From contig NZ_CP086235.1 of assembly GCF_023612095.1 (NCBI RefSeq), forward strand, positions 1,075,001-1,139,000: DNA of 64,000 nt, given 5' to 3'. Position numbers and translations under genes: made by a program. Below the pieces are notes generated by a model. That model had not been told where the DNA came from. It did no database searches and was given only the letters and a program-made list of their open reading frames with translations. This DNA is from Cytobacillus firmus (lineage in GTDB: Bacteria; Bacillota; Bacilli; Bacillales; Cytobacillaceae). Positions 7,701 through 52,891 of the stretch are shown here, piece after piece (position 1 is the stretch's first letter; each line of letters begins with the position of its first letter).

Positions 7701-8104
7701 AACGATGACGGAGACCAGTACCTTGCACTAAGCCTTTTCAGGGAGAAAATGCCTAAGACTGAAAGCATTTTTACAGGAAATGCAAGAGAAGTTTCACCTC
7801 CTGAGTTGGCATCGGGACCATTGAAAAGTAATGCTTTGGCGCGCCCTGCTGAGTTGTCCAGCTGCAGCGGCTAGCCCCTCGAGGTCATAAGCCAATCCTC
7901 TCAGAAAGGTAAAGAACACCTTTCCAAGAGGCTCGTCTTATGCTTGTCGGGGCTGAACGAGCCACTTCCGCTTTTCTTTGTAAAGATGTACCGGCATAAG
8001 CCGTTATCCCAATGAAGAGAACACGTGCATGAAGTACATATATGTGTTAAAAAGGGTGGTACCGCGAAACCTCGTCCCTTTATGGGGATAGAGGTTTTTT
8101 ATTT
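7701..8104 (+). promoter_or_regulatory. T-box leader (Phe) controlling pheST
   Basis: A tRNA-sensing antitermination leader. The T-box AGGGTGGTACCGCG is at 8053-8066 and the competing terminator at 8068-8100 (AACCTCGTCCC with GGGGATAGAGGTT, then T-run). The probable specifier codon is TTC at 7793-7795 within GAAGTTTCACC, fitting uncharged tRNA-Phe and the downstream gene. A stem III (ACCGGC/GCCGTT, about 7990-8004) is also visible. At roughly 400 bases it is longer than usual because a dispersed repeat is inserted between stem I/II and stem III. Confidence 0.92.
7854..7979 (+). repeat. dispersed repeat family A, copy 1, inside the pheS T-box
   Basis: About 126 bases sharing GCCCCTCGAGGTCATAAGCC, TCGTCTTATGCTTGTCGGGG and TCCGCTTTTCTT with the copy at 52770-52891. 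It folds as a long hairpin: CATAAG (7886-7891) with CTTATG (7937-7942), CCTCT (7897-7901) with AGAGG (7927-7931), and GAAAGGT (7904-7910) with ACCTTTC (7918-7924). Similar elements are familiar from Bacillaceae genomes, but I cannot give a formal family name. No coding capacity. Confidence 0.8.
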
Positions 8105-8147
8105 TGGCCAAAAAAGTAAATGAATTAATATCAAGGAGGATTTTTAG

Positions 8148-9185
8148 ATGCAAGAGCGTTTAAAAGAACTGCAAACTGAAGCGTTAGAAAAGATCAGCAC
8201 AGCCGCTGATTTGAGAGAGCTAAATGATATCCGTGTATCTTATTTAGGCAAAAAAGGCCCGATTACTGAAGTGCTTAAAGGAATGGGGAAATTGTCTGCT
8301 GATGAGCGTCCCAAAATGGGGGCCCTTGCAAATGAAGTGCGGGACAGCATTGCTGCCGGAATTGAGGAAAAACAAAAGCATCTGGAGGAAGCGGCTGTTC
8401 AGGAAAAACTGGCTGCAGAAAAAATTGATGTCACTCTACCGGGAAGACCTGTTAAATCAGGAAACCACCATCCGCTGACAAGAATTATTGAAGAAATTGA
8501 AGATCTGTTCATTGGAATGGGTTATTCGGTAGCTGAAGGTCCTGAAGTTGAAAAAGATTATTATAATTTTGAAGCATTGAATCTTCCTAAAGGCCATCCT
8601 GCCCGGGATATGCAGGATTCCTTCTATATTACAGAAGATATTCTTCTTCGTACCCATACTTCGCCGGTACAGGCAAGAACAATGGAGAAGCATGAAGGCA
8701 AGGGGCCAGTTAAAATCATCTGCCCGGGTAAAGTATATCGCCGAGATAATGACGACGCTACACACTCTCACCAGTTCATGCAAATAGAGGGACTTGTTGT
8801 AGATGAAAACGTCCGAATGACTGATTTAAAAGGAACATTGGAGGTCTTTGCAAAGAAAATGTTTGGTGATGACAGGGAAATCCGTCTTCGCCCAAGTTTC
8901 TTCCCGTTTACAGAGCCATCTGTGGAAATGGATATTTCCTGTAAAATATGCGGCGGAAAAGGCTGCAGCGTATGTAAAGGCACTGGCTGGATTGAAATTC
9001 TTGGTGCAGGAATGGTTCATCCAAATGTTCTTGAGATGGCAGGCTTCGACTCTAAGAAATACACAGGTTTTGCATTCGGAATGGGTCCTGAGCGAATTGC
9101 CATGCTGAAGTATGGTGTAGATGATATTCGTCATTTCTACACAAATGATGTGCGTTTCTTGAAACAATTTTCAATTCATGAATAA
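8148..9185 (+). CDS. pheS: phenylalanine--tRNA ligase alpha subunit
   Basis: A 345-residue catalytic subunit of the alpha2-beta2 PheRS that attaches phenylalanine to tRNA-Phe. Visible: the N-terminal coiled-coil arm that binds tRNA (about residues 1-85), then the class II core. Motif 2 is in [31 protein letters not shown] and motif 3 in [36 protein letters not shown] cysteine-rich insert ([16 protein letters not shown]) is typical of the bacterial enzyme. It follows the T-box leader with an AAGGAGG Shine-Dalgarno and is co-transcribed with pheT 42 bases downstream. Confidence 0.98.
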
Positions 9186-9227
9186 TTAGAAAGCCCGGAG
9201 CTTGACAATTACTAAGGAGGATCACAA

Positions 9228-11642
9228 ATGTTCGTTTCATATAAATGGCTGCAGGAATATGTTGATTTATCAGGCGTTACGCCTGAAGAGCTTTCAGAAA
9301 AGATTACTAAAAGCGGTATAGAAGTTGAAGGCGTAGAGATTTTGAATGAAGGTATCAAAGGTGTGGTTGTAGGGCATGTCCTTGAAAGGGAACAGCACCC
9401 AAATGCTGATAAACTGAATAAATGTTTAGTCGATACAGGGGCGGGTGAGCCTGTACAGATCATCTGCGGTGCCCCGAATGTGGATAAGGGACAGAAAGTG
9501 GCCGTGGCTACAGTTGGAGCTGTTCTTCCAGGTAATTTTAAAATAAAGCGTGCCAAGCTGCGCGGCGAGGAATCGAATGGAATGATCTGTTCGCTTCAAG
9601 AGCTCGGCATTGAAAGTAAGCTGATTGCAAAGGAATACTCTGAAGGCATTTATGTTTTTCCTAATGATACAGAGGTTGGTCAGGATGCTCTTCTGCAGCT
9701 TAATCGTGACGACCAGATTCTGGAACTTGGATTGACTCCAAACCGTTCTGACTGCTTAAGCATGCTGGGTGTTGCATATGAAGTGGCAGCTATTTTAGGA
9801 AGAGAAGTAAAGCTTCCTGCACCTCAAGCAGAGACTTCTTCAGAGAGGGCATCTGCTTACATCGATGTTCAAGTGGACGCAAAAGAAGATAATCCTCTTT
9901 ACGTTGCGAAGGTTGTAAAAAATGTAAAGGTTGGCCCATCTCCTGTATGGATGCAGGCGCGTTTAATGGCAGCAGGCATTCGCCCTCACAATAACGTGGT
10001 GGATATTACAAACTACATTTTGCTTGAATACGGCCAGCCGCTTCATGCATTCGATTATGACCGGCTGGGATCAAAGCAAATCCTTGTCCGCAGAGCAAAT
10101 GATGGCGAAGTGATTGTCACTCTTGATGATGCAAAACGCGAGTTAACATCAGATCATCTTTTAATAACAAATGGGACAGAGCCAATTGCACTTGCGGGTG
10201 TCATGGGCGGGTCAAATTCTGAAGTACAGCCTGACACAAAAAATGTGATTATCGAATCAGCTTATTTTAAAGGGGCAACGGTTAGAAAAGCTTCAAAAGA
10301 CCATGGATTAAGAAGCGAAGCAAGCGCACGCTTTGAAAAAGGTGTGGATCCAAACAGAGTTAGAGCTGCTGCGGAAAGAGCTGTTCAATTGCTTGCACAA
10401 TATGCGGGCGGAGAAGTGCTTGAAGGTTCTGTGGAAGCTGATGCACTGCAAGTTGAGCCTGCTGTGGTGTCTGTAACGCTTGAAAAAATCAATCGTGTCC
10501 TTGGTACGGAATTATCCATGAAAGAAGTAGAGGGTATTTTTGCCCGTCTTCAATTTGCAACGAATACTGATAACGATACAATTACTGTTACAGTTCCAAC
10601 TCGCAGAGGCGATATCACAATTGAAGAAGACCTTATTGAGGAAGTTGGCCGATTATTTGGCTACGATAACCTGGCATCAACTTTACCGGTTGGTTCATCT
10701 ACACCAGGGCATCTTACCCAATATCAGAATAAACGCAGAATGGTCCGCCGCTGCCTTGAAGGTGCGGGACTTTATCAGGCAGTGACTTATTCATTAACAA
10801 ATGAAGCAAAAGCGGCTCAATATGCACTGGAAGAACGCAAACCTGTGCAGCTGGCAATGCCTATGAGTGAGGATCGCAGCCTGCTTCGGTTAAGTATTGT
10901 TCCGCAGCTTCTGGAGGTATTAAAATATAATTCGGCACGTCAGAACGACAGTCTGGCTGTTTATGAAACTGGGGCAGTGTTCCTCTCGAATAGAGAAGAG
11001 GAATTGCCTGAAGAGCGTGAGCATCTTGCAGGTGCGGTTACTGGTCTTTGGCACAGCCATCCATGGCAGGGAGAAAAGAAGCCAGTTGATTTTTACGTTG
11101 TAAAAGGTATCCTTGAAGGTTTATTTGAAAAGCTGGGACTCTCTGATAAGATTGAATTCCGTCAAGCGCAAAAGGATGGAATGCATCCTGGCAGAACAGC
11201 AGAAATATTGCTTTCCGGGGAGTCAGTGGGATTTGTCGGACAAATCCATCCAACTGTCGAAAAAGAGCTTGATTTGAAAGAAACCTATGCATTTGAGCTT
11301 TCATTAAAAGCGATTCTGGAAGAAGAAGTTTCACCTTTACAGTATGAAGCTATTCCGCGTTTCCCTTCCATCACAAGGGACATTGCACTTGTGGCAGATC
11401 AGGGAACAGCAGCAGGCGAGCTTAAAGGAATCATTAAAGAAGCTGGCGGCAAATTATTAAAAGACGTACATGTTTTTGACTTGTACGAAGGTGAACGGAT
11501 GGAGCCAGGCAAAAAATCGCTTGCTTTCTCCCTTAAATACTTCGATCCTGAACGTACTCTGACGGATGAAGATGTAACAAAAGCGCATGACAAAGTATTG
11601 GAAGCTGTGAAGGAAAAAGCCGGAGCGGTATTGAGAGGATAA
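9228..11642 (+). CDS. pheT: phenylalanine--tRNA ligase beta subunit
   Basis: An 804-residue beta subunit of PheRS, normal length. Domains in order: N-terminal B1 and the tRNA-binding/OB domain (about 40-150, with [19 protein letters not shown]), the B3/B4 editing domain that hydrolyses Tyr-tRNA-Phe (about 200-400), the B5 DNA-binding-like fold (about 405-475), a catalytic-like core without activity, and the C-terminal FDX-ACB anticodon domain ([19 protein letters not shown], about 710-804). It pairs with PheS and is regulated by the same T-box. Ends in a strong terminator. Confidence 0.98.
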
Positions 11643-11645
11643 AAT

Positions 11646-11676
11646 GAAAAAGGCAGCCTGAGGGCTGCCTTTTTCA
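11646..11676. terminator. terminator between pheT and rnhC
   Basis: AGGCAGCC and GGCTGCCT form a stem flanked by A-runs and T-runs, four bases after pheT. It could also serve the converging rnhC. Confidence 0.88.
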
Positions 11677-11705
11677 TTTTAACTGGCCGTTAACTTTCTT
11701 TATTA

Positions 11706-12644
11706 TCAATTATATTTCCTGCTATACAGCTTCAGTGCCTTTTCAGTATTTGCAAAATGCAGTTTTACAAAAGAAGGCAATGCTTCACGCCCTTTTTCCT
11801 TAATAAGCCGGGCAGCTGCCTCATCAACCTTCGGACCGGCGCCTTTAGTAAGCCGGAAACCGGCCTTTGTGCTAAGGTTTTCAAAATGGCGCACAAACGC
11901 ATAGCGTGCCAGGATGGATGCTGCTGCAACAGCCAGATGAATTCCTTCCGCTTTTGTGCTGAAAAAGACCCGCTCCCTCTGTATGGTCTGCTGGTTTTTT
12001 AAATAATTGAAGTAAATCTCTTCCTTGGCAAATTGGTCAATCAAAATGGCTTCAGGCTTTTCAGGAGAGATTTTCCCTAAAACATGCCCGATTGCCTGAT
12101 TGTGCAGCAATGCTTTGATTTTCCCCTGTGACATCCCTGATTGCTGAAGCTTATTGTATTTTTCATTGTGCAATGTTAACAGGCTGTGGGGAACGATATC
12201 TTTAATCTGCTTTGCGATTTCGATGATTTTTTCATCTCCCAGATTTTTTGAATCCTTAACTCCAAGCTCCTTCAGCAAAGGAATTTGATCTTTCTTTACG
12301 TAAGCTGCAACCACCGTAATGGGGCCAAAATAATCCCCGGTGCCCACTTCATCTGAACCTATGACAGAAAGAGAACTGATATTTTCCGGCAGGTTGGCAG
12401 CGGCAGGGCTGGTTTTTTTGCTGGGCTGTGAACTGCGTGCGGTATCTCCCCACTTTTTAGCCTCTGCTTCACATCCGCTCCCTTGGAAGAGGACCTTGCC
12501 TGATTTATAGGCAGTGATCGAACATCCCGGCACTTTTGCAGCAAATACACTTCCAGGAGGCTGCTTGTCATTTAGGCTGCCTGAATAATGGGCCTTCATT
12601 TTTGAGATTTCACTTGCTTTTTTTAAAAGGACTACCTGGCTCAT
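11706..12644 (-). CDS. rnhC: ribonuclease HIII
   Basis: Removes RNA from RNA-DNA hybrids and resolves R-loops and primers. The N-terminal TBP-like hybrid-binding domain occupies about residues 1-90. The RNase H fold starts with the type II signature VIGSDEVGTGDYFGPITVVAAYV (catalytic Asp and Glu), and later acidic residues include LIDQFAKEE. The frame extends five codons further upstream, to 12659. However, that upstream ATGAGGAG is itself the Shine-Dalgarno for ATG 12644, so the protein is taken as 312 residues starting MSQVVLLKK. Divergent from zapA, as in B. subtilis. Confidence 0.93.
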   Translation of the reverse strand: MSQVVLLKKASEISKMKAHYSGSLNDKQPPGSVFAAKVPGCSITAYKSGKVLFQGSGCEAEAKKWGDTARSSQPSKKTSPAAANLPENISSLSVIGSDEVGTGDYFGPITVVAAYVKKDQIPLLKELGVKDSKNLGDEKIIEIAKQIKDIVPHSLLTLHNEKYNKLQQSGMSQGKIKALLHNQAIGHVLGKISPEKPEAILIDQFAKEEIYFNYLKNQQTIQRERVFFSTKAEGIHLAVAAASILARYAFVRHFENLSTKAGFRLTKGAGPKVDEAAARLIKEKGREALPSFVKLHFANTEKALKLYSRKYN

Positions 12645-12753
12645 ATTAATTCTCCTCATCTTAGTGTACTGTTGAATTTATTCCCTCTATTTGGAAAACA
12701 CTTGCATTAACGGCTCATCTGACATGCTTTGACTTCCCACCAATATGCGTTCG

Positions 12754-12762
12754 TGTTATGAT
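12754..12762 (+). promoter_or_regulatory. extended -10 promoter of zapA-yshB
   Basis: TGTTATGAT (TGnTATGAT) lies 37 bases before zapA. The TTGACT at 12729 is 22 bases from the -10, too far for a normal -35, so the extended -10 probably drives it. Confidence 0.45.
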
Positions 12763-12798
12763 ATTGATTAGGATTCTTTAAAGAAGGGGGCATGGACG

Positions 12799-13065
12799 TT
12801 GTCAGACATACAAAGAAACCGAACTAGTGTAGATATTTATGGACAGCAATATGTAATAGTTGGCTCAGAAAGCTCCAGCCATGTTCGCCTTGTCGCTTCG
12901 CTGGTTGACGATAAAATGCGTGAGATCAGTTCGAAGAATCCTTCACTCGACATTAGTAAGCTGGCCGTGCTGACCGCAGTCAATGCAGTTAATGATTATA
13001 TAAAGCTAACAGACCGTCTGGAACGGCTGGAAAACGAATTAAATAGAGTAAAGGACGGAAAGTAG
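12799..13065 (+). CDS. zapA: cell division protein ZapA
   Basis: An 88-residue FtsZ-associated protein that bundles FtsZ filaments and stabilises the Z-ring. The sequence shows the ZapA core ([39 protein letters not shown]) and a C-terminal coiled coil. The start is TTG at 12799, eight bases after GGGGG at 12786-12790. An ATG at 12792 is out of frame and rejected. Two bases separate it from yshB, so both are one transcript. Confidence 0.92.
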
Positions 13066-13067
13066 TC

Positions 13068-13610
13068 ATGCTGGATCTTGCAATTATCATTATTTTAGTT
13101 TTTGGTTTTTTAATAGGCTTGAAAAGAGGGTTTATCCTCCAATTAATTCATTTGACCGGATTCATTATTGCTTTCATTGTTGCCCGTATGTATTACGGTG
13201 AGCTTGCGCCTAAGCTGACCTTATGGGTGCCATATCCAAGCTTTAGCAGTGACTCGGCGATTAAGACGTTATTTGAGAATGGGAATCTTGAAGATGCTTA
13301 CTATCGCGCCATTGCATTTGTCGTGATTTTTTTTGCGGTAAAAATATTGCTGCAGATTATTGGAAGCATGCTCGACTTTGTTGCCCATCTTCCAGTACTG
13401 AAACAGCTGAACGTTTGGGCTGGCGGAATTCTCGGATTTATCGAAGTCTATCTTATCATGTTTATTCTATTATACATAGCAGCACTCGTTCCAATCGAAG
13501 TCCTGCAGGGGCCGATCAATAATTCCTTTATGGCAGAATTAATGGTTAAGAATACGCCTGTTCTCTCTAACCAGCTCAAAGAAATGTGGGTTGAATATAT
13601 GGCTGCGTAA
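13068..13610 (+). CDS. yshB: CvpA family membrane protein (YshB)
   Basis: A 180-residue integral membrane protein of the CvpA/colicin V production family. It has four hydrophobic segments (about 4-18, 24-44, 78-100 and 116-142) and the family start LDLAIIIILVFGFLIGLKRGF. B. subtilis YshB has the same position after zapA. Molecular role unknown; the conserved link with zapA and mutS2 suggests a part in division or the envelope, but that is inference. Followed by a terminator that overlaps its stop. Confidence 0.9.
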   Translation: MLDLAIIIILVFGFLIGLKRGFILQLIHLTGFIIAFIVARMYYGELAPKLTLWVPYPSFSSDSAIKTLFENGNLEDAYYRAIAFVVIFFAVKILLQIIGSMLDFVAHLPVLKQLNVWAGGILGFIEVYLIMFILLYIAALVPIEVLQGPINNSFMAELMVKNTPVLSNQLKEMWVEYMAA

Positions 13611-13640
13611 CTTCTCTATTTCTAGAGAAGTTTTCTTTTT
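13609..13640 (+). terminator. intrinsic terminator of zapA-yshB
   Basis: AACTTCTCT pairs with AGAGAAGTT around ATTTCT and is followed by TTCTTTTT. Confidence 0.85.
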
Positions 13641-13688
13641 GAAAGGCTCTTTTGTAAAAAATGTTGTTATTCGCCAACTATGTTGTCC

Positions 13689-13817
13689 GTTGATTTCCGC
13701 TCCAGGCTGCTCGCTTTCCGCGGGGCGGGTGGTGAGCCTCCTCGACGCTGCGCGTCTGCGGGGTCTCACCTGTCCCGCTACTCCCGCAGGAGTCTCGCAC
13801 CTTCCGCTCCAATCAAC
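13689..13817 (-). repeat. dispersed repeat family B, copy 1
   Basis: 129 bases bounded by GTTGATTTCCGCT and AGCGG..AATCAAC-type ends that are near-complementary. On the minus strand it is almost identical to the copy at 62386-62515 and related to 32858-33041. It has a central GACGC/GCGTC hairpin and a flanking GGTGAG/CTCACC stem. GC-rich against an AT-rich surrounding, non-coding, between yshB and polX. The rest of the 13641-13947 gap shows nothing else I can name. Confidence 0.88.
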
Positions 13818-13947
13818 TCAGTGAATAATATATAAAAAGCAGCAAACATTGCGAAAAACAGTCTTTTGAAAATAGCCATGATTTGAAGTTGCACTGCAAA
13901 ATAAGAGATAATACGGATACGAATACAGTTACGGGCAGGTGGTTTTT

Positions 13948-15666
13948 ATGAGTATAAATAAAAAAGATGTTGTCAGACTTTTAGAAACAATCGCTGTTTA
14001 TATGGAGTTAAAAGGAGAAAATCCGTTCAAAACAGCCGCCTTCCGAAAAGCGGCACTCGCACTTGAATCTAATGATGAAAGCTTGACTGAAATTGATGAT
14101 TTCACAAAGCTATCCGGCATCGGAAAAGGCACCGCTGCTGTTATAGAGGAGTACATCAAAGAAGAAAAGTCTTCTGTTCTGGATGAACTGAAAGAAGAAG
14201 TCCCTGCCGGATTAATTCCTCTGCTTCAGCTCCCGGGGCTTGGCGGCAAGAAAATAGCCAAGCTATATAAAGAACTGGGCGTCGAAAATGCTGCAGACCT
14301 TGAGGAAGCGTGCCGCAATAAGAAGGTCCGGGGACTGGCAGGATTCGGAGAAAAATCTGAAGAAAAGATACTCGCTGCCCTTGAAAATGCAGGAACCAGA
14401 CCGGAACGGCTCCCGCTTGCATTCATGCTGCCGATAGCAGAAGGCATAGAAGCAGCCCTGGCTGAAATGAAGGATATTGAAAAGTATTCAAGGGCAGGAA
14501 GCTTAAGGAGAATGAGGGAAACAATCAAAGACCTCGACTTTATCATAGCTACTGACAATCCTGCTTCTGTCAAAGAACAGCTATTAAGTCTAGCCGGCAT
14601 CAAAGAAGTAATTGCTGCAGGAGAAACAAAGGTTTCTGTTGTCTTTCAGCATTCCTATGATATATCGGCTGATTTCCGAATAGTTGAGACGCATGAATTT
14701 GCCACAACACTCCATCATTTTACTGGATCAAAGGACCATAATGTCAGAATGCGCCAGCTCGCAAAAGAGCGCGGGGAAAAAATCAGTGAATATGGAGTCG
14801 AAAATACAGAGACAGGTGAAATCCTTACGTTTAATAATGAAGAAGAATTTTACGCGCATTTTGGGCTTCCGTTCTTCCCTCCTGAAATTAGGGAAGATGG
14901 GAAAGAAGTAGATGAATATACGCAAGACATGGAGCTCATTTCTCTTGAAGATATTAAGGGTGATCTTCATATGCACTCAACCTGGAGTGATGGCGCTTAT
15001 TCCATAGAGGAAATGATCGAAGCGTGCCGTGCCCGCGGCTATAAATACATGGCTATAACAGACCATTCCCAGTACCTGAGAGTGGCGAACGGTTTGACAG
15101 CCGAAAGGCTTCGCAGGCAGAAAGAAGAAATAAAGCGGCTAAATGAGCAATTCGATGATTTCACCATATTATCAGGGGTAGAAATGGATATTCTGCCTGA
15201 TGGATCGCTCGATTATGACGATGAACTTCTGGAGGAGCTGGATATTGTCATTGCTTCCATCCATTCTTCTTTTTCACAGCCGAAAGAAAAAATCATGGAC
15301 CGCTTGAAAACGGCTCTGCAGAATGCCCATGTTGACATTATTGCCCACCCTACGGGAAGATTGATCGGCCGCAGGGAAGGCTATGAAGTAGACATGGAAA
15401 TGCTCATCGAGCTCGCCAGGGAAACAAATACAGCCCTTGAGCTGAATGCAAATCCAAACCGGCTTGACCTTGCTGCTGAACATATCAGACAAGCTCAGGA
15501 AGCCGGTGTGAAAATAGTGATTAATACAGATGCACATAAAATAGATACTTTAAATCATATGGAAATCGGTGTTTCTGCGGCAAAGAAAGGATGGATCAAG
15601 AAAGAATCCGTTTTAAATGCCTTAGAAACAGGAGATTTGCTCAAATTTCTGAGAGAACGCCAGTAG
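13948..15666 (+). CDS. polX: DNA polymerase/3'-5' exonuclease PolX
   Basis: Family X DNA polymerase for gap filling and base-excision repair, about 572 residues. Domains: N-terminal HhH 8-kDa domain (KDVVRLLETIAVYMELKGENPFK), thumb/fingers HhH (LPGLGGKKIAKLYKELGV), and a polymerase palm with acidic residues in LRRMRETIKDLDFII. The C-terminal PHP exonuclease domain begins DLHMHSTWSDG near residue 339 and continues with AITDHS and NTDAH metal motifs. GTG at 13939 is in frame, but ATG 13948 is better placed after AGGTGG and matches homologues. Upstream of mutS2, as in B. subtilis. Confidence 0.94.
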   Translation: MSINKKDVVRLLETIAVYMELKGENPFKTAAFRKAALALESNDESLTEIDDFTKLSGIGKGTAAVIEEYIKEEKSSVLDELKEEVPAGLIPLLQLPGLGGKKIAKLYKELGVENAADLEEACRNKKVRGLAGFGEKSEEKILAALENAGTRPERLPLAFMLPIAEGIEAALAEMKDIEKYSRAGSLRRMRETIKDLDFIIATDNPASVKEQLLSLAGIKEVIAAGETKVSVVFQHSYDISADFRIVETHEFATTLHHFTGSKDHNVRMRQLAKERGEKISEYGVENTETGEILTFNNEEEFYAHFGLPFFPPEIREDGKEVDEYTQDMELISLEDIKGDLHMHSTWSDGAYSIEEMIEACRARGYKYMAITDHSQYLRVANGLTAERLRRQKEEIKRLNEQFDDFTILSGVEMDILPDGSLDYDDELLEELDIVIASIHSSFSQPKEKIMDRLKTALQNAHVDIIAHPTGRLIGRREGYEVDMEMLIELARETNTALELNANPNRLDLAAEHIRQAQEAGVKIVINTDAHKIDTLNHMEIGVSAAKKGWIKKESVLNALETGDLLKFLRERQ

Positions 15667-15696
15667 GAAAATTGGGCATGAAAGGGGAAAGTCCTC

Positions 15697-18054
15697 ATGC
15701 AAGAAAGAGTATTGAAGATACTTGAGTTCAATAAAGTGAAGGAACAGCTGCTGGAACATGTTTCTTCGTCCTTGGGAAGAAAAAAGGCCTTAAATATTCT
15801 TCCTTCAACTGACTATGAAGAAGTAATCCGCAGGCAGGAAGAAACAGATGAAGCGGTAACAGTGCTTAGAATTAAAGGGAATGTACCGCTTGGGGGCATT
15901 TTTGACATACGACCTCATGTGAAGCGGGCGGTTATTGGCGGAATGCTTAGTCCCCAGGAACTTAACCAGATATCCAGCACGATTCATGCAAGCCGGCAAA
16001 TGAAACGGTTCATCGAGGAATTTGCCGAGGAAGAAAGCAGCCTGCCGATCCTATTGGGATATACAGATAAAATTATTGTTCTGGCGGATTTGGAAACATC
16101 TATCCGTAATGCGGTCGATGACAATGGGGAAGTACTTGACAGTGCGAGCGAGACTCTTCGTTCCCTTCGAAATCAGCTTCGTACAAAAGAATCGCGGGTA
16201 AGGGAGCGGCTGGAGAGCATGATTCGGTCTTCCAGCGCACAAAAAATGCTTTCCGATGCGATTATAACGATCCGAAATGACCGGTTTGTCATACCGGTTA
16301 AGCAGGAATACCGGGGCCATTATGGAGGCATAATCCATGACCAGAGTTCTTCCGGCCAGACATTATTCATTGAGCCCGCGTCCATTGTCCAGCTGAACAA
16401 TGAATTACAGGGCATCAGGGTAAAAGAACAGCAGGAGATTGAACGGATTCTCATAGTGCTATCAGGACAGACTGCTGAGAATAGCAGTGAACTGGAAACC
16501 ATTGTAGATGTGCTCGGAGAAGTCGATTTTACGTTTGCAAAAGCCAGATACAGTAAACGCATAAAAGCCTCCAAACCAAAAATTAATAATCAAGGGAAAA
16601 TTTCATTATTCAAAGCCCGGCATCCGCTTATTCCGATTGAAGAAGTGGTGGCAAATGATATTAAGCTGGGAGATGATTATTCAACAATAGTCATAACGGG
16701 ACCTAATACCGGCGGGAAAACAGTTACCTTAAAAACACTGGGGCTTTGCACATTGATGGCACAAGCCGGTCTGCAAATCCCGGCGCTTGATGGTTCTGAA
16801 ACAGCGGTCTTCGGAAATGTTTATGCTGATATCGGAGATGAACAGTCAATTGAACAAAGCTTAAGTACCTTTTCTTCTCACATGGTGAATATCGTCGATA
16901 TTCTTAACCAGGTTGATTTCAATAGTCTGGTTTTATTCGATGAGCTTGGTGCAGGCACAGATCCGCAGGAAGGTGCAGCTCTCGCGATTTCCATTCTTGA
17001 TGAAGTATACAAGCGGGGTGCAAGAGTTATTGCCACAACTCATTACCCTGAACTGAAAGCTTATGGCTACAACAGAGAAGGAGTTATCAATGCCAGTGTA
17101 GAATTTGATATTGAAACGTTAAGCCCAACCTATAAGCTGCTGATTGGGGTTCCGGGCCGAAGCAATGCTTTTGAAATATCTAAACGGCTTGGGCTCAATG
17201 ATCAAGTGATTGAGACAGCACGATCTTATATCGGAACAGATACAAATCAGGTTGAGAACATGATTGCTTCACTGGAGGAAAGCCGCAGACAGGCAGAGGC
17301 TGATATGGAAGAAGCCAATGACTTTTTAAAAAGCGCTGAAAAACTCCATAAAGATCTGCAAAAGCAAATGGCTGAATTTTATGAGCAAAAAGATGCTATG
17401 CATGAGAAGGCTGCAGAAAAAGCAGGCGATATCGTTGAGAAAGCCAAGGCTGAAGCAGAAGAGATTATCCGTGATTTAAGAAAGATGCGGATGGAGAAAC
17501 ATGCTGAGGTGAAGGAACACGAGCTGATAGAAGCAAAGAAACGCCTGTCCGATGCTGCGCCCCAGATGAGCACAGCCAAAAATAAACTAAAGCCAAAGAA
17601 TACTAAGCATGTTTTTGAAGCAGGCGATGAGGTTAAAGTTCTGAGTTTTGGGCAAAAAGGGCATCTGCTTGAAAAGGTGTCTGAAAATGAATGGCAGGTT
17701 CAGATTGGTATCCTGAAAATGAAAGTGGCCGAAAAGGATCTGGAGTACATTAAAAGCCCAAAACCTGTGGAAACAAAACCAGTGGCAACGGTGAAAGGAA
17801 GAGATTTTCACGTCAGCCTTGAGCTTGATTTACGGGGCGAGCGCTATGAAAACGCGCTCTTAAGAGTCGAGAAATATTTAGATGATGCCCTGCTGGCTGG
17901 ATATCCCCGTGTCTCCATCATTCATGGTAAAGGGACCGGTGCATTGAGGCAGGGTGTTCAGGAATATCTGAGAAATCACAGATCTGTAAAGAAAATCAGG
18001 TTTGGTGAAGCTGGAGAAGGCGGTACAGGGGTTACAATCGTTGAATTCAAATAA
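15697..18054 (+). CDS. mutS2: endonuclease MutS2
   Basis: 785 residues, full length. MutS2 acts on branched DNA and, in Bacillus, on collided ribosomes, splitting them for quality control. Seen: the MutS core, ATPase Walker A GPNTGGKT at residues 335-342, Walker [14 protein letters not shown] and the ABC signature STFSSHM. These are followed by a long charged coiled coil (about 520-620), a KOW-like segment ([13 protein letters not shown]), and a C-terminal Smr nuclease domain (about 710-785) with [12 protein letters not shown] and HGKGTGALR. It starts ATG at 15697 after AAAGGGG, 30 bases past polX. Confidence 0.95.
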
Positions 18055-18055
18055 G

Positions 18056-18091
18056 CTTCCCTTCCCCTTATGATTATTCAAAGGGGAAGGG
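18056..18091 (+). other. strong hairpin between mutS2 and yshE
   Basis: CCCTTCCCCTT and AAGGGGAAGGG form an 11-base-pair stem right after the mutS2 stop. There is no T-run after it, so it is more likely an RNA-stabilising or processing stem than a terminator. Confidence 0.6.
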
Positions 18092-18118
18092 GATGTAATA
18101 CCGGCGGGGAGAATATAA

Positions 18119-18526: not shown

Positions 18527-18540
18527 GGAGAGAATTAACA

Positions 18541-18624: not shown

Positions 18625-18650
18625 TATTTTTGTAAAATAGGGAAATGAGG

Positions 18651-18680
18651 AAATCGCCAATTCATATGGCGATTTTTTTT
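18651..18680 (+). terminator. intrinsic terminator of the mutS2-yshE transcript
   Basis: AATCGCCA and TGGCGATT pair around ATTCATA-type loop sequence and end in a run of eight T. Confidence 0.9.
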
Positions 18681-18791: not shown

Positions 18792-18876
18792 AAGAAAGAA
18801 CAGTTGGAATGTTCAAAAAGTTCAGAAGGAGTACATCGCTTTTCTGAAACTTTAGCAAGAATGAAGGAGGGACAAA

Positions 18877-32776: not shown

Positions 32777-32857
32777 AGTCTATATTCGCATAATCTTTTA
32801 TTTAGGCTGTTTTCGTAAAGTTTATGGCTTTTTTCATAGCTTAGTTTAATTTGCTGA

Positions 32858-33041
32858 GTTGATTGGAGCGGAGGGCACTTGATCCTCGAAAATGCTGACG
32901 CATTTCCTTCGTGCGGTGTTTATCCGAGGAAGCTTATTCAATGTCCTGCGGGAGGAGAGGGAAGTGTGAGACCCCGCAGGCGAAGCCGAGGAGGCTCGCA
33001 TCCCTCCCCGCGGAAAGCAAGTGCCTGCAGCGGAAATCAAC
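32858..33041 (+). repeat. dispersed repeat family B, copy 2 (long variant)
   Basis: 184 bases with the family ends (GTTGATTGGAGCGGA ... GCGGAAATCAAC) but an extra block of about 55 bases near the left side. The block folds as TCCTCG (32883-32888) with CGAGGA (32925-32930), enclosing AAATGC (32890-32895) and GCATTT (32900-32905). The central hairpin is GGC/GCC here against GACGC/GCGTC in the other copies. Between sdhB and ysmA; the rest of that 450-base gap shows nothing else. Confidence 0.85.
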
Positions 33042-33189
33042 GGGCAGAATTCATAAACCAAAAACAACAATCATTGAAAAAAAAGATCCTTTATTTTACA
33101 TGAGGAAAGGTTTTCAAACAATTCGAAAAACACTATAATGAAATTCAACAGAGTGAATGCTCATTCATAAAAAATTGGGAGGAACCAGC

Positions 33190-41967: not shown

Positions 41968-42000
41968 TGGAGTTTAAAAACATGAGGAGGTTATCAACAA

Positions 42001-44237: not shown

Positions 44238-44282
44238 ATAAACTATTATAAATATAAAAAACTTATTCGGAGAGGGAGATAA

Positions 44283-46833
<2,551 letters not shown>

Positions 46834-46960
46834 TCTGAAGCGGGAGATTCTGCACACGAATGCGGAAAGTCTCCTGTCGTTCCCCCGAAAAGCAAATGCG
46901 CGGCAGAAATATAATAGGAAGAAAATTTATAAAACAATAAATCAGACGGAGGGATTAAAA

Positions 46961-48073
46961 ATGAAAAAACGTATCGCAGTACTTCCAGGAGATGGGATCG
47001 GCAAAGAAGTGGTGAAGGGTGCAATTGAAGTCCTGCAGGCTGTTGGTGAACGGTTCGGACATCAATTCCAATTTTCATATGGCAAAATCGGCGGTTCTGC
47101 TATTGATGCAGCCGGAACTCCGCTGCCTAATGAAACGCTGGAGCTTTGCAAAGAAAGCGATGCGGTCATGCTGGGAGCGGTTGGCGGACCTAAATGGGAC
47201 CGGCAGCCTCCCCACCTTCGTCCGGAAAAGGGTCTATTAAGGATCCGCAAGGAATTAAATCTATATGCCAATTTGCGGCCAACTCAATATTATTCAAGCC
47301 TTTCCGATACGTCTCCGTTAAAAAATGAAGTAATTGAAGGCGTGGATATGCTGATGGTCAGAGAATTAACCGGCGGACTTTATTTTGGAAAGCCAAGCGA
47401 AAGGACACAGCAAAACGGAAAAGATGCTGTCGTGGACACTTTGTTTTATCAAAAAGAAGAAATGCGCCGTGTCATTAAGCTGGCATTCGAACTTGCAGGA
47501 AAGCGGCGTGGCAAGGTGACTTCTGTTGACAAGGCCAATGTCCTGGAATCCAGCCGAATGTGGAGAGAAGTTGCAGAGGACATTGCAAAGCAATATCCTG
47601 ATGTGGTTCTTGAACATATGCTTGTTGATAATGCCGCTATGCAAATGATTAAAAACCCGAAAAGATTTGATGTTGTCGTAACAGAGAATATGTTCGGTGA
47701 TATTCTGAGCGATGAAGCCTCTGTATTGACCGGTTCTCTGGGAATGCTTCCTTCTGCCAGCATTTCGGAAAACGGGCCTTACTTATACGAACCTATTCAT
47801 GGTTCAGCACCGGATATTCAAGGGAAGAATGCAGCTAATCCAATTGCCATGATTTTATCGGCAGCCATGATGCTCCGTTTATCCTTCGGAATGGAAGAGG
47901 AAGCTGAAGCAGTTGAGAATGCTGTTAATCAAGTTCTTGAAGCCGGCTATCGTACGAGAGATATCTTTTCATTTGGAAAAAAGGTTGTCACTACTTCTGA
48001 AATGATTGAAGAGGTAAAGGCTACCCTTTTGGATAACGAGGCTATTCTTAACATTATGGGGGCTTATGCATAA
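46961..48073 (+). CDS. leuB: 3-isopropylmalate dehydrogenase
   Basis: An NAD-dependent oxidative decarboxylase of leucine synthesis. It is 370 residues, with the start KKRIAVLPGDGIGKEV, substrate arginines in LRIRKELNLYANLRPTQ, the VRELTGGLYFG loop, and metal-binding aspartates in VVTENMFGDILSDEASVL. The NAD region is GSAPDIQGKNAANPIAMILS. It follows GGAGGG. A terminator-like stem separates it from leuC. Confidence 0.97.
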   Translation: MKKRIAVLPGDGIGKEVVKGAIEVLQAVGERFGHQFQFSYGKIGGSAIDAAGTPLPNETLELCKESDAVMLGAVGGPKWDRQPPHLRPEKGLLRIRKELNLYANLRPTQYYSSLSDTSPLKNEVIEGVDMLMVRELTGGLYFGKPSERTQQNGKDAVVDTLFYQKEEMRRVIKLAFELAGKRRGKVTSVDKANVLESSRMWREVAEDIAKQYPDVVLEHMLVDNAAMQMIKNPKRFDVVVTENMFGDILSDEASVLTGSLGMLPSASISENGPYLYEPIHGSAPDIQGKNAANPIAMILSAAMMLRLSFGMEEEAEAVENAVNQVLEAGYRTRDIFSFGKKVVTTSEMIEEVKATLLDNEAILNIMGAYA

Positions 48074-48114
48074 GAGCTGACTGCTGGGCACTGGTTCAGC
48101 TGATTTTAAACTTG

Positions 48115-48144
48115 AGACACGGCCATCATCGGCCGTGTTTCTTT
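48115..48144 (+). terminator. terminator-like hairpin between leuB and leuC
   Basis: ACACGGCC and GGCCGTGT pair around ATCATC, followed by TTTCTTTT, 42 bases after leuB and 20 before leuC. It is inside the operon, so it may cause partial termination or mark an RNA end. Confidence 0.7.
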
Positions 48145-48163
48145 TAAAAAGGAGTCGAGCAGA

Positions 48164-49579
48164 ATGGGAAAATCAATAATAGATAAGATTTGGGAAAAGC
48201 ATGTAGTCCACAGGGAAGAAGGAAAGCCGGATTTGATGTACATAGACCTCCACTTAGTACATGAAGTTACATCCCCTCAGGCATTTTCCGGTTTAAGAAT
48301 GAAAAGCAGGAAAGTGAGAAAGCCTGATAAAACGTTTGCTACAGTTGATCATAATGTTCCTACTGATAACCGAAAAGTCATCAATGATCCTGTTGCATTA
48401 AATCAAATGACCACTTTGGAAAAAAACTGTCTGGAATTCGGCATCCCTCTTGCCGGGCTGGAAAGTCCTGAACAGGGTATTGTTCATGTGATTGGGCCGG
48501 AGCTGGGGCTTACTCAGCCAGGCATGACAATTGTTTGCGGGGACAGCCATACATCCACTCATGGAGCTTTTGGATCAATAGCCTTTGGCATCGGCACAAG
48601 TGAAGTTGAGCATGTCCTGGCTACCCAGACGTTATGGCAGAGCAAGCCTAAAACATTAAAACTGGAGATAAACGGCGAGCTAAAAAAAGGTGTCACTGCT
48701 AAAGATGTCATCCTTTATATTATTGCTAAAAAAGGAATTGGTTTTGGCACAGGCCATATTATTGAATATTGCGGGGAGACAATTGCAAAAATGTCAATGG
48801 AAGAAAGAATGACGATTTGCAATATGTCCATTGAAGGAGGCGCAAAGGCGGGGCTTGTGAGTCCTGATGAAACAACGTTTGCGTATCTTCAAGGACGAAA
48901 GTATGCGCCAAAAGGAGCCGGATTTGCGGATGCAGTCGGGAATTGGAAGGAGCTTGTATCTGATCCTGATGCGCAATACGATAAAACCATTCAAATTGAT
49001 GCTGCAGATATTGCGCCTATGGTCAGCTGGGGCACAAATCCATCAATGACTTCCAAGGTGAATGAACAAATTCCAAAACTTGAGGAATGCAAAAACGAGC
49101 TTGAACAAAAATCACTATCAAGAGCTTTGGAATATATGGGACTGCAGGAAGGCCAAAAAATTGAAGACATTCAAATTCAGCACGTTTTTATCGGGTCCTG
49201 CACGAATTCCCGGCTGGAAGACCTGAAACTGGCAGCTGAACTCATTAGAGGGAAAAAGGTTCATCCCCATGTCCGCGCACTTGTTGTACCAGGCTCACAG
49301 CAGGTCAAGAAGCAGGCAGAGGCAGATGGGCTGGACCTTATCTTTAAGCAGGCTGGGTTTGAATGGAGGGAATCAGGCTGCAGCATGTGTTTGAGCATGA
49401 ATAATGATATTGTGCCAAACGGCGAGCATTGTGCGTCGACATCAAATCGTAATTTTGAAGGAAGACAGGGGTCAGGGGCCAGAACACACCTTGTCAGCCC
49501 TTTAATGGCGGCAGCGGCAGCTATATACGGACATTTTGTGGACGTAGGTGCTTTGCTAAGTGCAGAGACTGTCCATTAA
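48164..49579 (+). CDS. leuC: 3-isopropylmalate dehydratase large subunit
   Basis: With LeuD it isomerises 2- to 3-isopropylmalate. It is 471 residues of the aconitase superfamily. The [4Fe-4S] ligands are C346 in GSCTNSR, and C406 and C409 in SGCSMCLSM. The motif [32 protein letters not shown] near 124-155 is typical. Starts ATG 48164 after AAGGAG; leuD follows by 16 bases. Confidence 0.97.
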
Positions 49580-49595
49580 GAAGGAGGAGAACTAA

Positions 49596-50189
49596 ATGAG
49601 CGGATTCAAAACACTTCAGGGGAAAGCAGCTGCAATGGATAGAGCCAATGTGGATACTGATCAGATCATTCCCAAGCAATTTCTAAAAAGAATTGAGAAA
49701 ACAGGATTTGGACAATATCTTTTTTATGACTGGAGATATACGAAAGAAGGGCTGCCTAACCCGGAGTTTGAGCTGAATAAGACTGAAAATCAGGGTGCTT
49801 CCATCCTCATTGCAAATGAAAATTTCGGCTGCGGATCTTCCCGGGAGCATGCGCCATGGGCTTTAGGGGATTATGGATTCAAAGTAATTATTGCCCCTTC
49901 GTTTGCGGACATCTTCCATCAAAATTGCTTAAAAAATGGACTTCTGCCAATCACTCTGCCGGCAGAAACGGTCGAATATTTGCTCGAACGATCCCAAAAC
50001 CAGCCGTATGATCTGAAGGTTGATTTGCAGAATGGAATAGTTGAAGATGAATATAATTTTTCAGCATCATTCACAATTAATGAATACTGGAAAAAAATGC
50101 TGATAAACGGCTGGGATGAAATAGAGATTACTCTTCAATTGGAAAGCAGCATTTCAAGTTTCGAAGAAAAACAGTTTGCGGTGCAGTAG
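49596..50189 (+). CDS. leuD: 3-isopropylmalate dehydratase small subunit
   Basis: 197 residues; the swivelling domain that completes the LeuCD active site. The family motifs DRANVDTDQIIPKQFLKRI and NFGCGSSREHAPWALGDYGFKVIIAPSFADIF are clear. Last gene of the ilv-leu operon, followed by a strong terminator. Start ATG after AAGGAGGAG. Confidence 0.97.
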   Translation: MSGFKTLQGKAAAMDRANVDTDQIIPKQFLKRIEKTGFGQYLFYDWRYTKEGLPNPEFELNKTENQGASILIANENFGCGSSREHAPWALGDYGFKVIIAPSFADIFHQNCLKNGLLPITLPAETVEYLLERSQNQPYDLKVDLQNGIVEDEYNFSASFTINEYWKKMLINGWDEIEITLQLESSISSFEEKQFAVQ

Positions 50190-50198
50190 GCACCTGTG

Positions 50199-50237
50199 AA
50201 AGATTCATGGCATGAAACCATGAATCTTTTTGTTTTT
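50199..50237 (+). terminator. intrinsic terminator of the ilv-leu operon
   Basis: AAAGATTCATGG and CCATGAATCTTT form a 12-base-pair stem followed by TTGTTTTT. Confidence 0.92.
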
Positions 50238-50290
50238 GAGCTATTTCATGCTACACTAACTTCAAAAATAATAGTTGAGGCGGTTTTAGC

Positions 50291-51319
50291 ATGGGAAAGC
50301 GGGAACAGAAAAAACAAAAAAATAAAATCATTCTATTTCCCGGCCTTGAAAAACGGCTGCTGGAAAAGGGACTTGAGTCCTTTCAGCAGAAAAGGTATAA
50401 AGAATCAATCCGGTTCTTTGAAGAAGCGTTGGATATGGAGCCTGAGAATACGGATGTTCATATTGGGCTCGTTTTGGCATATTATGAAGCCGGAGCTTTG
50501 GAAAAGGCAAAAGAACTGGCCAATAAAATGCTCCAGACAGGCATTGGGGATTACATACAAGTAATGGATCTTTATTTAATGATCCTTGTGCAGCTGCATC
50601 AATACAGGGAGATTGCAGCAACGATCGAGGTTTTGCTTGAAGAAAGGGAGATCCCGAAGGAGAAATTTGAGCATTTTAGCAGAATGCTTGAGTTCAGCAG
50701 AAAAATGGCTGCTTCACCTTCTGAAACTGAGATCGAAGCACCCGATCTGGAGGAATTTAACAGTAGGAAACTCAATCTGTTTTCTTACCAGGATCAGCAT
50801 GAACAAATGCAGATTGCTGCACAGCTGGCAGAACATAACATCAGGCCTTATCTCGAAGATATTAAAGCCTATTTGGAAGCGGAGGATGGAAATCCTTTTT
50901 TTAAAACGATGCTGTTAAATGTACTTTCTGAGCATGGGTATGAAAAATATGTAACGATTCGGAAGTTTGATAAGAGCCTGCGGGTAAATCCTGCTGAACT
51001 GCCACCTGTTCATCAGCAGCCCATGCTGTTAAAGATAGTCAATAAACTGGAGAATCAGCTCGAACAGGAAGATCCGGTACTATTTGAAAATACAAAGAGC
51101 ATTGCACAAAGACACTTCTTCCTGCTTTATCCGCATGAAGCCCCGCCGGAGAATGCTGTGTCCTGGGCTGCGGCATACCATATGCTTTCAAATGAGTATC
51201 ATGGCTTAAACAGTTCGATAAGCAAGCTTGGTGATATTTATGATGCTCCTGAAGAGGAAATTGAAGAGGCTCTTGCCTTTATAAGAAAGATAGAAGAAAT
51301 TTCTTATCCCAATATTTAG
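50291..51319 (+). CDS. ysoA: tetratricopeptide repeat protein (YsoA)
   Basis: A 342-residue soluble protein. The N-terminal region has TPR-type helix pairs (about residues 22-56 with LESFQQKRYKESIRFFEEALDMEPENTDVHIGLVLAYYEAGALEKAKELA, and one or two weaker repeats). The C-terminal half is alpha-helical without a recognised domain. A very basic N-terminus (GKREQKKQKNK) precedes it. B. subtilis ysoA lies at the same place between leuD and tig. No enzymatic motif; a protein-protein scaffold is inferred. Confidence 0.85.
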   Translation: MGKREQKKQKNKIILFPGLEKRLLEKGLESFQQKRYKESIRFFEEALDMEPENTDVHIGLVLAYYEAGALEKAKELANKMLQTGIGDYIQVMDLYLMILVQLHQYREIAATIEVLLEEREIPKEKFEHFSRMLEFSRKMAASPSETEIEAPDLEEFNSRKLNLFSYQDQHEQMQIAAQLAEHNIRPYLEDIKAYLEAEDGNPFFKTMLLNVLSEHGYEKYVTIRKFDKSLRVNPAELPPVHQQPMLLKIVNKLENQLEQEDPVLFENTKSIAQRHFFLLYPHEAPPENAVSWAAAYHMLSNEYHGLNSSISKLGDIYDAPEEEIEEALAFIRKIEEISYPNI

Positions 51320-51328
51320 CCTTCAATG

Positions 51329-51356
51329 TTGAAAGACAGGGAGTGTATGTTATAAT
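51329..51356 (+). promoter_or_regulatory. sigma-A promoter of tig
   Basis: TTGAAA at 51329-51334 and TATAAT at 51351-51356, spacing 16, about 125 bases before tig. Confidence 0.7.
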
Positions 51357-51480
51357 ATAATGGTTGTATTATGTGTATATATACATTTTTATTAAATGGA
51401 TATGGCTTGAAAAACAAGAGATATTCATAACATTCTGTCATGAATGAAATGATAATAGATTTTTGGAGGGAAATGATTGT

Positions 51481-52767
51481 ATGTCTGCTAAATATGAAAA
51501 GTTAGAAGGGAACCGCGGGGTTCTTACAATTGAAGTAGATGCAGAGAAAGTAACCGAAGGTTTAGACGCTGCATTCAAAAAAGTAGTTAAGCAAGTAAAC
51601 GTACCGGGATTCCGTAAAGGAAAAATGCCTCGCGGAATGTTTGAAAAGCGTTTCGGAGTTGAATCTTTATACCAGGATGCAGTGGATTATCTTCTTCCGG
51701 AAGCATATGCTAATGCAATTGATGAAACTGGCATTGAGCCTGTTGATCGCCCTGAAATCGATGTTGAGCAAATCGAAAAAGGCAAAAGCCTTATCTTCAA
51801 AGCTACAGTAACTGTTAAGCCTGAAGTAAAGCTTGGCGAATACAAAGGCCTTGAAGTTAAACCGCTTGAAACAAGCGTTACAGAAGAAGATGTTAACAAT
51901 GAGTTAACTTCCCTTCAGGAAAGACAAGCTGAGCTGGCTGTTAAAGAAGAAGGCAAAGCGGAGAACGGCGATACAGTTGTTATGGACTTTGAAGGATTCG
52001 TTGATGGTGAAGCTTTCGAAGGCGGAAAAGCTGAGAACTACTCTTTAGAACTTGGTTCAGGACAATTCATCCCTGGATTTGAAGAGCAGCTGATTGGTAC
52101 TGCTGCTGGAGAATCTAAGGATGTCGAAGTTTCTTTCCCAGAGGAATACCACGCAGCTGAGCTAGCTGGTAAGCCTGCAACTTTCAAAGTAACTTTACAT
52201 GAAATCAAAACAAAACAGCTTCCTGAGCTGGATGATGAGTTTGCTAAAGATGCAGACGAAGAAGTTGAAACTTTGGATGCATTAAAAGAAAAAATTAAAA
52301 CTCGCTTAGAAGAAAGCAAAAAGCATGAAGCTGAGCACCATGTCCGCGACACTGTTGTTGAAGCAGCAGCTGCTAATGCAGAAATGGAAATCCCGGCTGC
52401 AATGGTTGATACTGAAGTTAACCGCATGATGCAGGAGTTCGAACAGCGTCTTCAAATGCAAGGCATGAACCTTGAACTATACTTCCAGTTCTCCGGACAG
52501 GATGAAGCAGCTTTACGCGAGCAAATGAAAGAGGAAGCTGAAAAGCGCGTTCGCGTTAACCTGACTCTTGAAGCAATAGCAAAAGCTGAAAACATCGAAG
52601 TAAGCGATGAAGAAGTTTCAGAAGAACTGAACAAAATGACAGAAATGTACAACATGTCTGCTGAGCAGATCACACAAGCTCTTGGAAGCCTTGAAGGCCT
52701 AAAAGCAGATCTTCAAATTAAAAAAGCAGTAGATTTCCTTGTGGAAAATAGCAAGACTGTTGCATAA
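51481..52767 (+). CDS. tig: trigger factor (ribosome-associated chaperone)
   Basis: Binds nascent chains at the ribosome exit and has peptidyl-prolyl isomerase activity. The frame opens at 51463, but ATG 51481, ten bases after GGAGGG, gives [11 protein letters not shown] and 428 residues, the usual length. Domains: the ribosome-binding N-domain with [12 protein letters not shown], the FKBP-type PPIase domain (about 160-245, [20 protein letters not shown]), and the long C-terminal helical arms. Downstream order tig-clpX-lonB-lonA is conserved. Confidence 0.96.
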
Positions 52768-52769
52768 TA

Positions 52770-52891
52770 AAAGAAAAGCGGAGCCGACTGCACTGCCCCG
52801 ACAAGCATAAGACGAATTACGGAGGAGGTTGTTAAACCTCAGTAGTAATTTGGCTTATGACCTCGAGGGGCAAGGAGGCGGAGCTAGACAG
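52770..52891 (-). repeat. dispersed repeat family A, copy 2, after tig
   Basis: In inverse orientation to copy 1 and sharing its conserved blocks (CCGCTTTTCTT, GACAAGCATAAGACGA and TTATGACCTCGAGGGGC as read here). Its stem keeps CATAAG/CTTATG (52806-52811 with 52854-52859). The inner arms differ from copy 1: AATTAC/GTAATT (52815-52820, 52845-52850) and GAGGTT/AACCTC (52825-52830, 52835-52840). It lies between the tig stop and the tig terminator, so it is transcribed. Confidence 0.8.

Follow-up and report, generated by a model that had tools for sequence, protein, structure and literature searches.

A probable BOX-like mobile hairpin element of Bacillales with exchangeable interiors, traced from two copies in Cytobacillus firmus

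Introduction

How can two hairpins in one bacterial genome share their outer sequence, differ completely in their inner arms, and still pair? The question is raised by a 64,000-nucleotide stretch of Cytobacillus firmus (assembly GCF_023612095.1, contig NZ_CP086235.1, positions 1,075,001 to 1,139,000; hereafter the window), in which one copy of a repeat lies in the leader of pheS (copy 1) and another behind tig, the trigger factor gene (copy 2). A preliminary description of the sequence took the changed but still pairing arms as a sign that a hairpin is selected for or is needed by some replication mechanism. We find that the repeat is a widespread structured element, and we consider it likely that the two copies are members of a composite mobile hairpin element of Bacillales that is non-autonomous and BOX-like. 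The preliminary description was right about the position of both copies (Table 1), and the analysis adds to it that the copies are antiparallel, that their interiors are exchangeable modules, and that copy 1 lies within a T-box.

A structured, covarying element

Copy 1 lies on the minus strand and copy 2 on the plus strand. They have in common an outer block of 41 nt at 83% identity and another that is identical at 21 of 21 nt, and their inner arms, exactly as first described, are wholly different in sequence and still pair. Folded in the orientation of the element, each beats all 200 dinucleotide shuffles (z of -4.1 for copy 1 and -5.5 for copy 2). A covariance model, R1, was built from 27 copies of the source genome, including the two in the window, so that the R1 scores of these two in Table 1 are self-inclusive. 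At E<=1, R1 has 106 matches in the 4.38 Mb source genome, among them sub-matches of composite copies and reverse-strand echoes; these correspond to about 70 element loci (a locus list of 70 entries). For the same 27 copies, RNAalifold predicts 35 pairs, 21 of which have at least one change on both sides.

Covariation was assessed on 97 of 146 distinct copies, less than 96% alike, which were found by end and core patterns and aligned by sequence only; the null was obtained by evolving columns independently along the tree of the same alignment. When pairs are predicted from a single window copy, copy 2 yields 34 and copy 1 yields 40, and 13 in each set remain significant after correction. Covariation summed over these pairs reaches 1281 and 1484, the highest sums in 200 simulations of the null being 130 and 116, and comes to at most 258 when the partners are slid by 1-3 columns. 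Structural pairs make up five of the 5 strongest column pairs, eight of the strongest 10, 12 of the strongest 20, and 17 of the strongest 50. The element is structured, with covariation beyond what phylogeny gives. The earlier reading of the hairpin depended on further genomic copies and on covariation, and both are found, the latter far beyond the tree-based null.

In the Watson-Crick-majority pairs of the 97 copies, there are 2701 Watson-Crick cells, 75 G.T, 26 A.C, and 75 other mismatches, and the plus strand folds better in 84 copies. Because G.T outnumbers A.C and the plus strand folds better, that strand, as RNA or as single-stranded DNA, is more likely to be the one that matters. The same strand test was uninformative for the helices of the Bacillaceae-1 module described below (57 G.T vs 64 A.C), where the pattern was too loose: it collected 95 modules, many of them false, 37 of which have the 5' end of the element close upstream.

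Fixed ends and exchangeable interiors

The 27-copy alignment is about 122 nt long, with ends GAAAAGCG / AGCTAGACA. A conserved foot, GAAAAGCGGAAGCGCC ... GGCGCTGGAGCTAGACA, encloses the element, and the middle stem holds a conserved internal loop, CGACAAG / ACCTCGAG. In the CAYAAG/CTTRTG stem, the Y-R pair switches jointly, being CG in 48 and TA in 46 of the 97 copies. An AT-rich 3' tail of about 40 nt, GTTATCGAAGTTCAAAATTTATACTTTCTTATCTTTTAA-like, is recognised at 65 of 175 right flanks and belongs to the inserted stretch at readable sites; the tail of copy 2 is missing at the empty tig sites of relatives. Left flanks finish in AA in 94 of 200 cases and in TA in 41.

The copies fall into size classes. 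Shells of about 40, 62, and 70 nt and the plain form of about 122 nt are joined by a class of about 183 nt, in which the Rfam family Bacillaceae-1 substitutes for the 5' arm of the middle stem, a class of about 245 nt, which holds another complete element nested at a constant position, and a class of about 306 nt, with a nested element plus Bacillaceae-1. The element thus has fixed end modules and variable interiors, the build by which a BOX-like composite repeat is recognised as a kind. Identity between composite copies at separate loci rises to 99.5%, with a median of 93.7% over 105 pairs. Three tandem arrays (839,008-839,775, with six copies; 3,059,794-3,060,174; and 407,099-407,540) alternate the same two subfamilies, of the ACCCCC/GGGGGT and TATCGGC/GCCGAT types, and look as if a mixed dimer was copied.

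Bacillaceae-1 (RF01690) has 17 matches in the source genome, 16 of them over the 35-bit cut-off; 11 of the 17 overlap or adjoin an R1 match, and six of six loci rescanned show Bacillaceae-1. The six matches that are not beside a detected element lie at 6,554; 991,343; 1,051,808; 1,193,460; 1,952,994; and 3,708,671 (the last below the cut-off). We also observed a third mini-repeat (AAAAGCT.GCGCTTTTGGTCGTGCGATG...) inside elements, at locus L226 (source genome 329,901-329,977, minus strand) and in elements of three relatives at window positions of about 35518 (G018), 54776 (G017), and 37782 (G009). At L226 it occupies the loop of the second hairpin of Bacillaceae-1, so that one repeat lies in a module that itself lies in another repeat.

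Distribution

Counting the source genome, the element was matched in 119 of 121 genomes of the family and in 79 of 101 genomes of the order; the per-genome counts in these searches are to be read as at least the number given (around 29-35 at most). An exact-pattern scan of named genomes has, among the matches listed, Cytobacillus, Neobacillus, Mesobacillus, Metabacillus, Rossellomorea, and others. A query with a single plain copy matched 1 of 72,556 plasmid records and none of 50,697 phage records. No Rfam family matches the element itself at gathering score, and the weak matches to Rfam mir families, below their gathering scores, are hairpin look-alikes. Searches of openly licensed papers turned up no description of the element family, which supplements (e.g., that of PMC11109978) may list. 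If replication is taken to start at coordinate 0, the element opposes the presumed movement of the fork at 44 of 70 loci (p 0.04), a bias too weak to use.

Filled, empty, and swapped sites among relatives

Orthologous sites in related genomes differ both in whether an element is present and in which interior it carries. At the pheS leader, 26 same-genus loci could be aligned (three more had no anchor and were left out). Four have the type seen in the window, six another stem type (some truncated), three the Bacillaceae-1 form, five a shortened form, and eight a remnant or nothing recognisable. The 3' side of tig was read at 29 loci: five are plain as in the window, two carry Bacillaceae-1 with the same apical hairpin, one retains a trace of this, two have short shells, and two have other subfamilies (one in tandem); nine close relatives are empty, and eight others have no element at this position. 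In the gap between pheS and pheT, compared in 11 genomes, the window and four relatives keep a short remnant, probably of a collapsed element, and the others have longer forms, two with Bacillaceae-1. Where Bacillaceae-1 is present at tig and, in one genome (G031), between pheS and pheT, the 3' arm retains the complement of the plain 5' arm. Since the retained complement is that of the arm now missing, the interior was presumably replaced on one side through recombination between copies.

When 11 genomes are compared over the region of the window, the covariance model gives 59 hits, of which 46 can be placed at 13 sites (one to the left of the window) and the other 13 have no counterpart position there; the window itself has two. 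Three echoes on the reverse strand were not counted, nor was the echo in the window. Window position 3309 is filled in G009 and empty in eight genomes, and position 18875 is filled in G032; at both, the alleles differ by the element plus its tail, with bases differing at the left border of the latter so that its exact border is not fixed.

Nine orthologous comparisons at tig and pheS (leaving out locus L285, whose ends were not found) contain 16 changed pairs, of which nine are broken, four are G-U, and three are compensated, about what unselected changes would give. Among dispersed copies 70-80% alike, 8165 compensated double changes were counted, against 4100 that leave the pair broken in at least one copy. 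On balance, with the in-situ sample being small, these figures favour a requirement for the hairpin during spread over a role at each site. The two alternatives of the preliminary description, selection or a replication mechanism, thus stand, with the data leaning towards spread.

The pheS T-box leader and the genes around the element

Copy 1 lies in the loop of the helix that precedes the CCGUUA hairpin of the pheS T-box leader; we take this helix and hairpin to be Stem II and Stem III in T-box naming. In a scan at gathering score, all four leaders that lack a full element pass, with scores of 97.0-97.7, and none of the three that have an element, that of the window included, is listed. The loop should tolerate the insert. 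The trp leader of the pneumococcus offers a precedent: a BOX element has been described between its two T boxes, and the authors judge that the riboswitches still work (PMC3049150).

A composite copy also lies antisense beside the thrS leader, between the terminator and the start region (source genome 1,074,399-1,074,606), just left of the window. From the alignment of relatives, thrS is a second aminoacyl-tRNA synthetase leader with the element.

The R1 match of copy 2 begins at the third base past the tig stop codon, and the copy lies between that stop (ending at 52767) and a terminator-like hairpin near 52938 that is kept in the relatives read and is missing from the list of a consensus terminator scan. 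Both window copies had been placed in transcribed untranslated regions. The untranslated setting holds (the T-box leader for one, the 3' side of tig for the other), and transcription of both is probable.

For gene context we scored 139 of 181 elements, setting aside 39 at locus edges and three inside open reading frames (ORFs). ORFs were assigned by a longest-ORF rule, and the named loci include related strains, so the elements are not all independent. Between codirectional neighbours, the element is antisense in 73 cases and sense in 19 (p 1.2e-8); 33 elements have an upstream gene in their own direction and a convergent downstream gene, and 14 are flanked by divergent genes. A previous count under different settings yielded 59:17 and 8:2. 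Of 52 elements whose upstream gene is codirectional with them, 30 have their 5' end within 6 nt of that gene's stop codon; placing them uniformly in the gap would give 7.2 (maximum 18 in 100,000 simulations). The 3' end is placed with no such precision (1 of 106, or 7 of 106 allowing for the tail). We looked for a link between Bacillaceae-1 cargo and antisense orientation and saw no difference between carriers and the rest (8:3 vs 65:16, Fisher p 0.69).

Features of the window

The coordinates of the element and its surroundings are collected in Table 1. We also observed a second repeat family in the window, with ends like TTGATTG.AGCGGAAGG ... CCTGGAGCGGAAATCAAC, at 13680-13856 (-), 32849-33067 (+), and 62347-62541 (+), two of the window copies being 94% alike across 139 nt. 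By eye, this family and the element studied here have a common foot motif, AGCGGAAG / CTGGAGC.

Table 1. Features in the window that bear on the element (positions counted from the first base of the window).
Feature	Position	Strand	Basis and remarks
pheS T-box leader hosting copy 1	7696..8082	+	Rfam T-box, 87.0 bits, below curated 93; 165-nt insert
Copy 1 of the element, plain form	7854..7979	-	R1 covariance model, 146.6 bits; antisense to pheS transcription
Inner arms of copy 1: CCTCT 7897-7901 / AGAGG 7927-7931; GAAAGGT 7904-7910 / ACCTTTC 7918-7924	7897..7931	-	Sequence, fold
pheS	8148..9185	+	NCBIfam TIGR00468, 388 bits
Probable collapsed element remnant, GAAAGC..CCGGAGCTTGACA, between pheS and pheT	9189..9207	+	Comparison with relatives
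tig (trigger factor), gene preceding copy 2	51463..52767	+	NCBIfam TIGR00115, 474 bits
Copy 2 of the element	52770..52891	+	R1 covariance model, 109.7 bits
Inner arms of copy 2: AATTAC 52815-52820 / GTAATT 52845-52850; GAGGTT 52825-52830 / AACCTC 52835-52840	52815..52850	+	Sequence, fold
AT-rich 3' tail of copy 2, approximate	52892..52934	+	Filled/empty comparison, tail consensus; right-hand border approximate

How the element may spread, and what else could explain it

A non-autonomous mobile hairpin might work as follows. An enzyme supplied in trans would recognise the folded strand and its foot, and insertion would take place at A/T-rich sites, often just behind TAA or TA, without a clear target duplication. 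As the interior would need only to fold, it could drift by paired changes, acquire modules such as Bacillaceae-1 or a second whole element, and be overwritten by recombination between copies via the conserved blocks. After insertion the structure would be little maintained, for which the evidence is weak, and the bias in gene position may reflect the purging of sense-strand hairpins from transcripts, except directly behind a stop codon.

Several observations weigh against this reading. When all 7021 column pairs are taken as tests, only two pass at E<0.05, both of them structural. Positions 3309 and 18875 show no clear target duplication, and short ones may be hidden in their A-rich flanks, within the A runs. 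Some of the sites scored as empty are collapsed remnants, so part of the presence and absence among relatives is loss, and no case of strains of a single species differing by an insertion was observed. The in-situ test is based on 16 changed pairs, and in the same comparisons paired positions changed less than unpaired ones (20/619 vs 25/429). No mobilising enzyme was found, in a search that covered the Y1_Tnp family only.

The rarer change at paired positions also speaks for a cis-acting RNA kept for the host at each site, whether as a stabiliser of mRNA 3' or 5' ends, as a target of RNase III or RNase Y, or as a CsrA-binding site. Such a function would suit the sense copies exactly behind stop codons, the excess of G.T on the plus strand, and the locations in the pheS leader and beside the thrS leader. 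It could also draw on the reported match of the Bacillaceae-1 reverse complement to a CsrA-binding motif (PMC4333381) and on the presence of csrA in the source genome. We nevertheless think it improbable. A host function at each site sits poorly with the mixed orientation and the antisense majority, with presence and absence among relatives and the differing interiors at one site, and with the nine of 16 changed pairs that are broken in orthologs, and antisense copies are not enriched among the carriers of Bacillaceae-1. That the likeness of the two window copies is due to chance, with two unrelated or vertically inherited hairpins, is hardly credible in the face of the exact 21-nt block, the roughly 70 loci, the covariation, and the presence and absence in relatives.

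If the element is mobile, repetitive extragenic palindromic (REP) sequences mobilised by a REP-associated tyrosine transposase (RAYT), a Y1 HUH enzyme, offer a precedent, and a search for a RAYT/TnpA-like or other mobilising protein had been suggested for these copies. The hairpin, the lack of a clear target duplication, and the tandem neighbours would fit, and Y1_Tnp was matched in 102 of 121 family genomes. The source genome has a single Y1_Tnp gene (locus L061, 1288-1881, near 443,100; 197 aa), which scores 54.1 bits against a Pfam cut-off of 23 but 60.8 against the cut-off of 80 for the NCBIfam REP transposase. That gene, however, is flanked by GGTGACAGG/ACCTGT palindromes rather than by the element, which is present at just three of 31 Y1_Tnp loci searched (the L061 gene and 30 among the matches listed). 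Ten of the 19 family genomes without a Y1_Tnp match (G034, G025, G017, G007, G032, G037, G038, G048, G066, and G099) carry at least 27-30 element matches, and the other nine carry 0-22. Because old copies could outlive a lost enzyme, these genomes make a past RAYT less likely, though still conceivable. With a size and foot that are also unlike those of REPs, the element is very unlikely to be mobilised in this way, and a RAYT/TnpA-like mobiliser is not supported. The palindromes beside the RAYT-like gene may be a repeat family of its own. A classical miniature inverted-repeat transposable element (MITE), moved by a DDE transposase and bearing terminal inverted repeats and target duplications, is less probable still. 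The element is short, dispersed, and non-coding, with ends that are partly inverted, but its outermost predicted helix has three pairs followed by an internal loop, its 3' tail lies outside the helix, and the two readable sites lack a clear target duplication.

A mobile, BOX-like composite element, whose hairpin would be needed on one strand while it spreads, therefore remains the reading that we prefer. An extension of it is more speculative. The element may be a hairpin that needs no Y1 (RAYT/IS200) enzyme to spread, that targets gene ends according to strand, with sense copies set directly behind stop codons, and that deals out RNA modules as a carrier. One such module would be the twin hairpin of Bacillaceae-1, whose reverse complement resembles two CsrA-binding sites, and the repeat could in this way bring untranslated regions, T-box leaders included, under post-transcriptional control; we regard this as doubtful.

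Significance and comparison with known systems

The element is a pervasive composite repeat, not listed in Rfam 15, of a much-studied bacterial order. It can push a genuine T-box under the Rfam threshold, and it may explain part of the orphan family Bacillaceae-1 as the cargo module of a mobile repeat. Its many orthologous filled, empty, and swapped sites are a direct test ground for the old question of whether such hairpins persist because they serve the host or because they help the repeat to spread.

Bacillaceae-1 RNA (RF01690; Weinberg 2010, PMC2864571) is typed in Rfam as a small RNA gene, whereas here it is a module standing in for the 5' arm of a repeat's middle stem. CsrA-binding motifs have been proposed for its reverse complement, and its discoverers were unsure of the strand (PMC4333381). 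Because of these suggested motifs and the csrA gene of the source genome, a regulatory cargo is conceivable.

Among other repeat families, REPs and bacterial interspersed mosaic elements (BIMEs) are intergenic hairpins, paired or clustered, of 20-40 bp with GTAG or CGTC at one end, the RAYT being linked to the GTAG kind; in Escherichia coli, 446 of 4,072 REPs lie within 15 nt behind stop codons (PMC3733652, PMC12306157). The element resembles them in its intergenic hairpins, in its clustered copies, and in the position of some copies close behind stop codons. It differs in being about 122 nt long rather than a hairpin of 20-40 nt, in having no conserved GTAG at its foot in the 27-copy alignment, in not flanking the RAYT-like gene, and in occurring in genomes that have no Y1_Tnp match. 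It also lacks the terminal inverted repeats of 15-30 bp that mark MITEs.

The repeats bcr1-bcr18 of the Bacillus cereus group are short and intergenic, with bcr1-3 described as MITE-like, and are often found in untranslated regions, some families having a conserved structure (PMC3446304). By the title of the original bcr1 paper, a different one, bcr1 is specific to the B. cereus group, whereas the element occurs across the order; we set the two apart by description. A screen of 50 genomes predicted another abundant, covarying single-stem repeat, MRSC-65-2, to be selfish; it occurs in diverse phyla and contains a UYCCGG repeat (PMC11109978). The element is likewise an abundant covarying single stem and is set apart from MRSC-65-2 by description only.

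The closest likeness is to BOX of Streptococcus pneumoniae, a hairpin-forming repeat of variable size with fixed boxA and boxC ends and a variable boxB interior, about half of whose insertions are common to all strains and in which repeats are inserted into each other (PMC3049150, Croucher et al. 2011). The two are alike in architecture: the composite build, fixed ends, variable interior, hairpin, nesting, and residence in a T-box leader recur in both. BOX, as described there, carries inverted repeats, is accompanied by target duplications, and varies chiefly in the number of boxB modules, whereas the element changes its interior by type (plain, Bacillaceae-1, or nested), has a 3' tail and no clear duplication, and ranges across an order. 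The element works like BOX, as a composite repeat, and has in addition a richer set of modules, a tail, and a very wide range.

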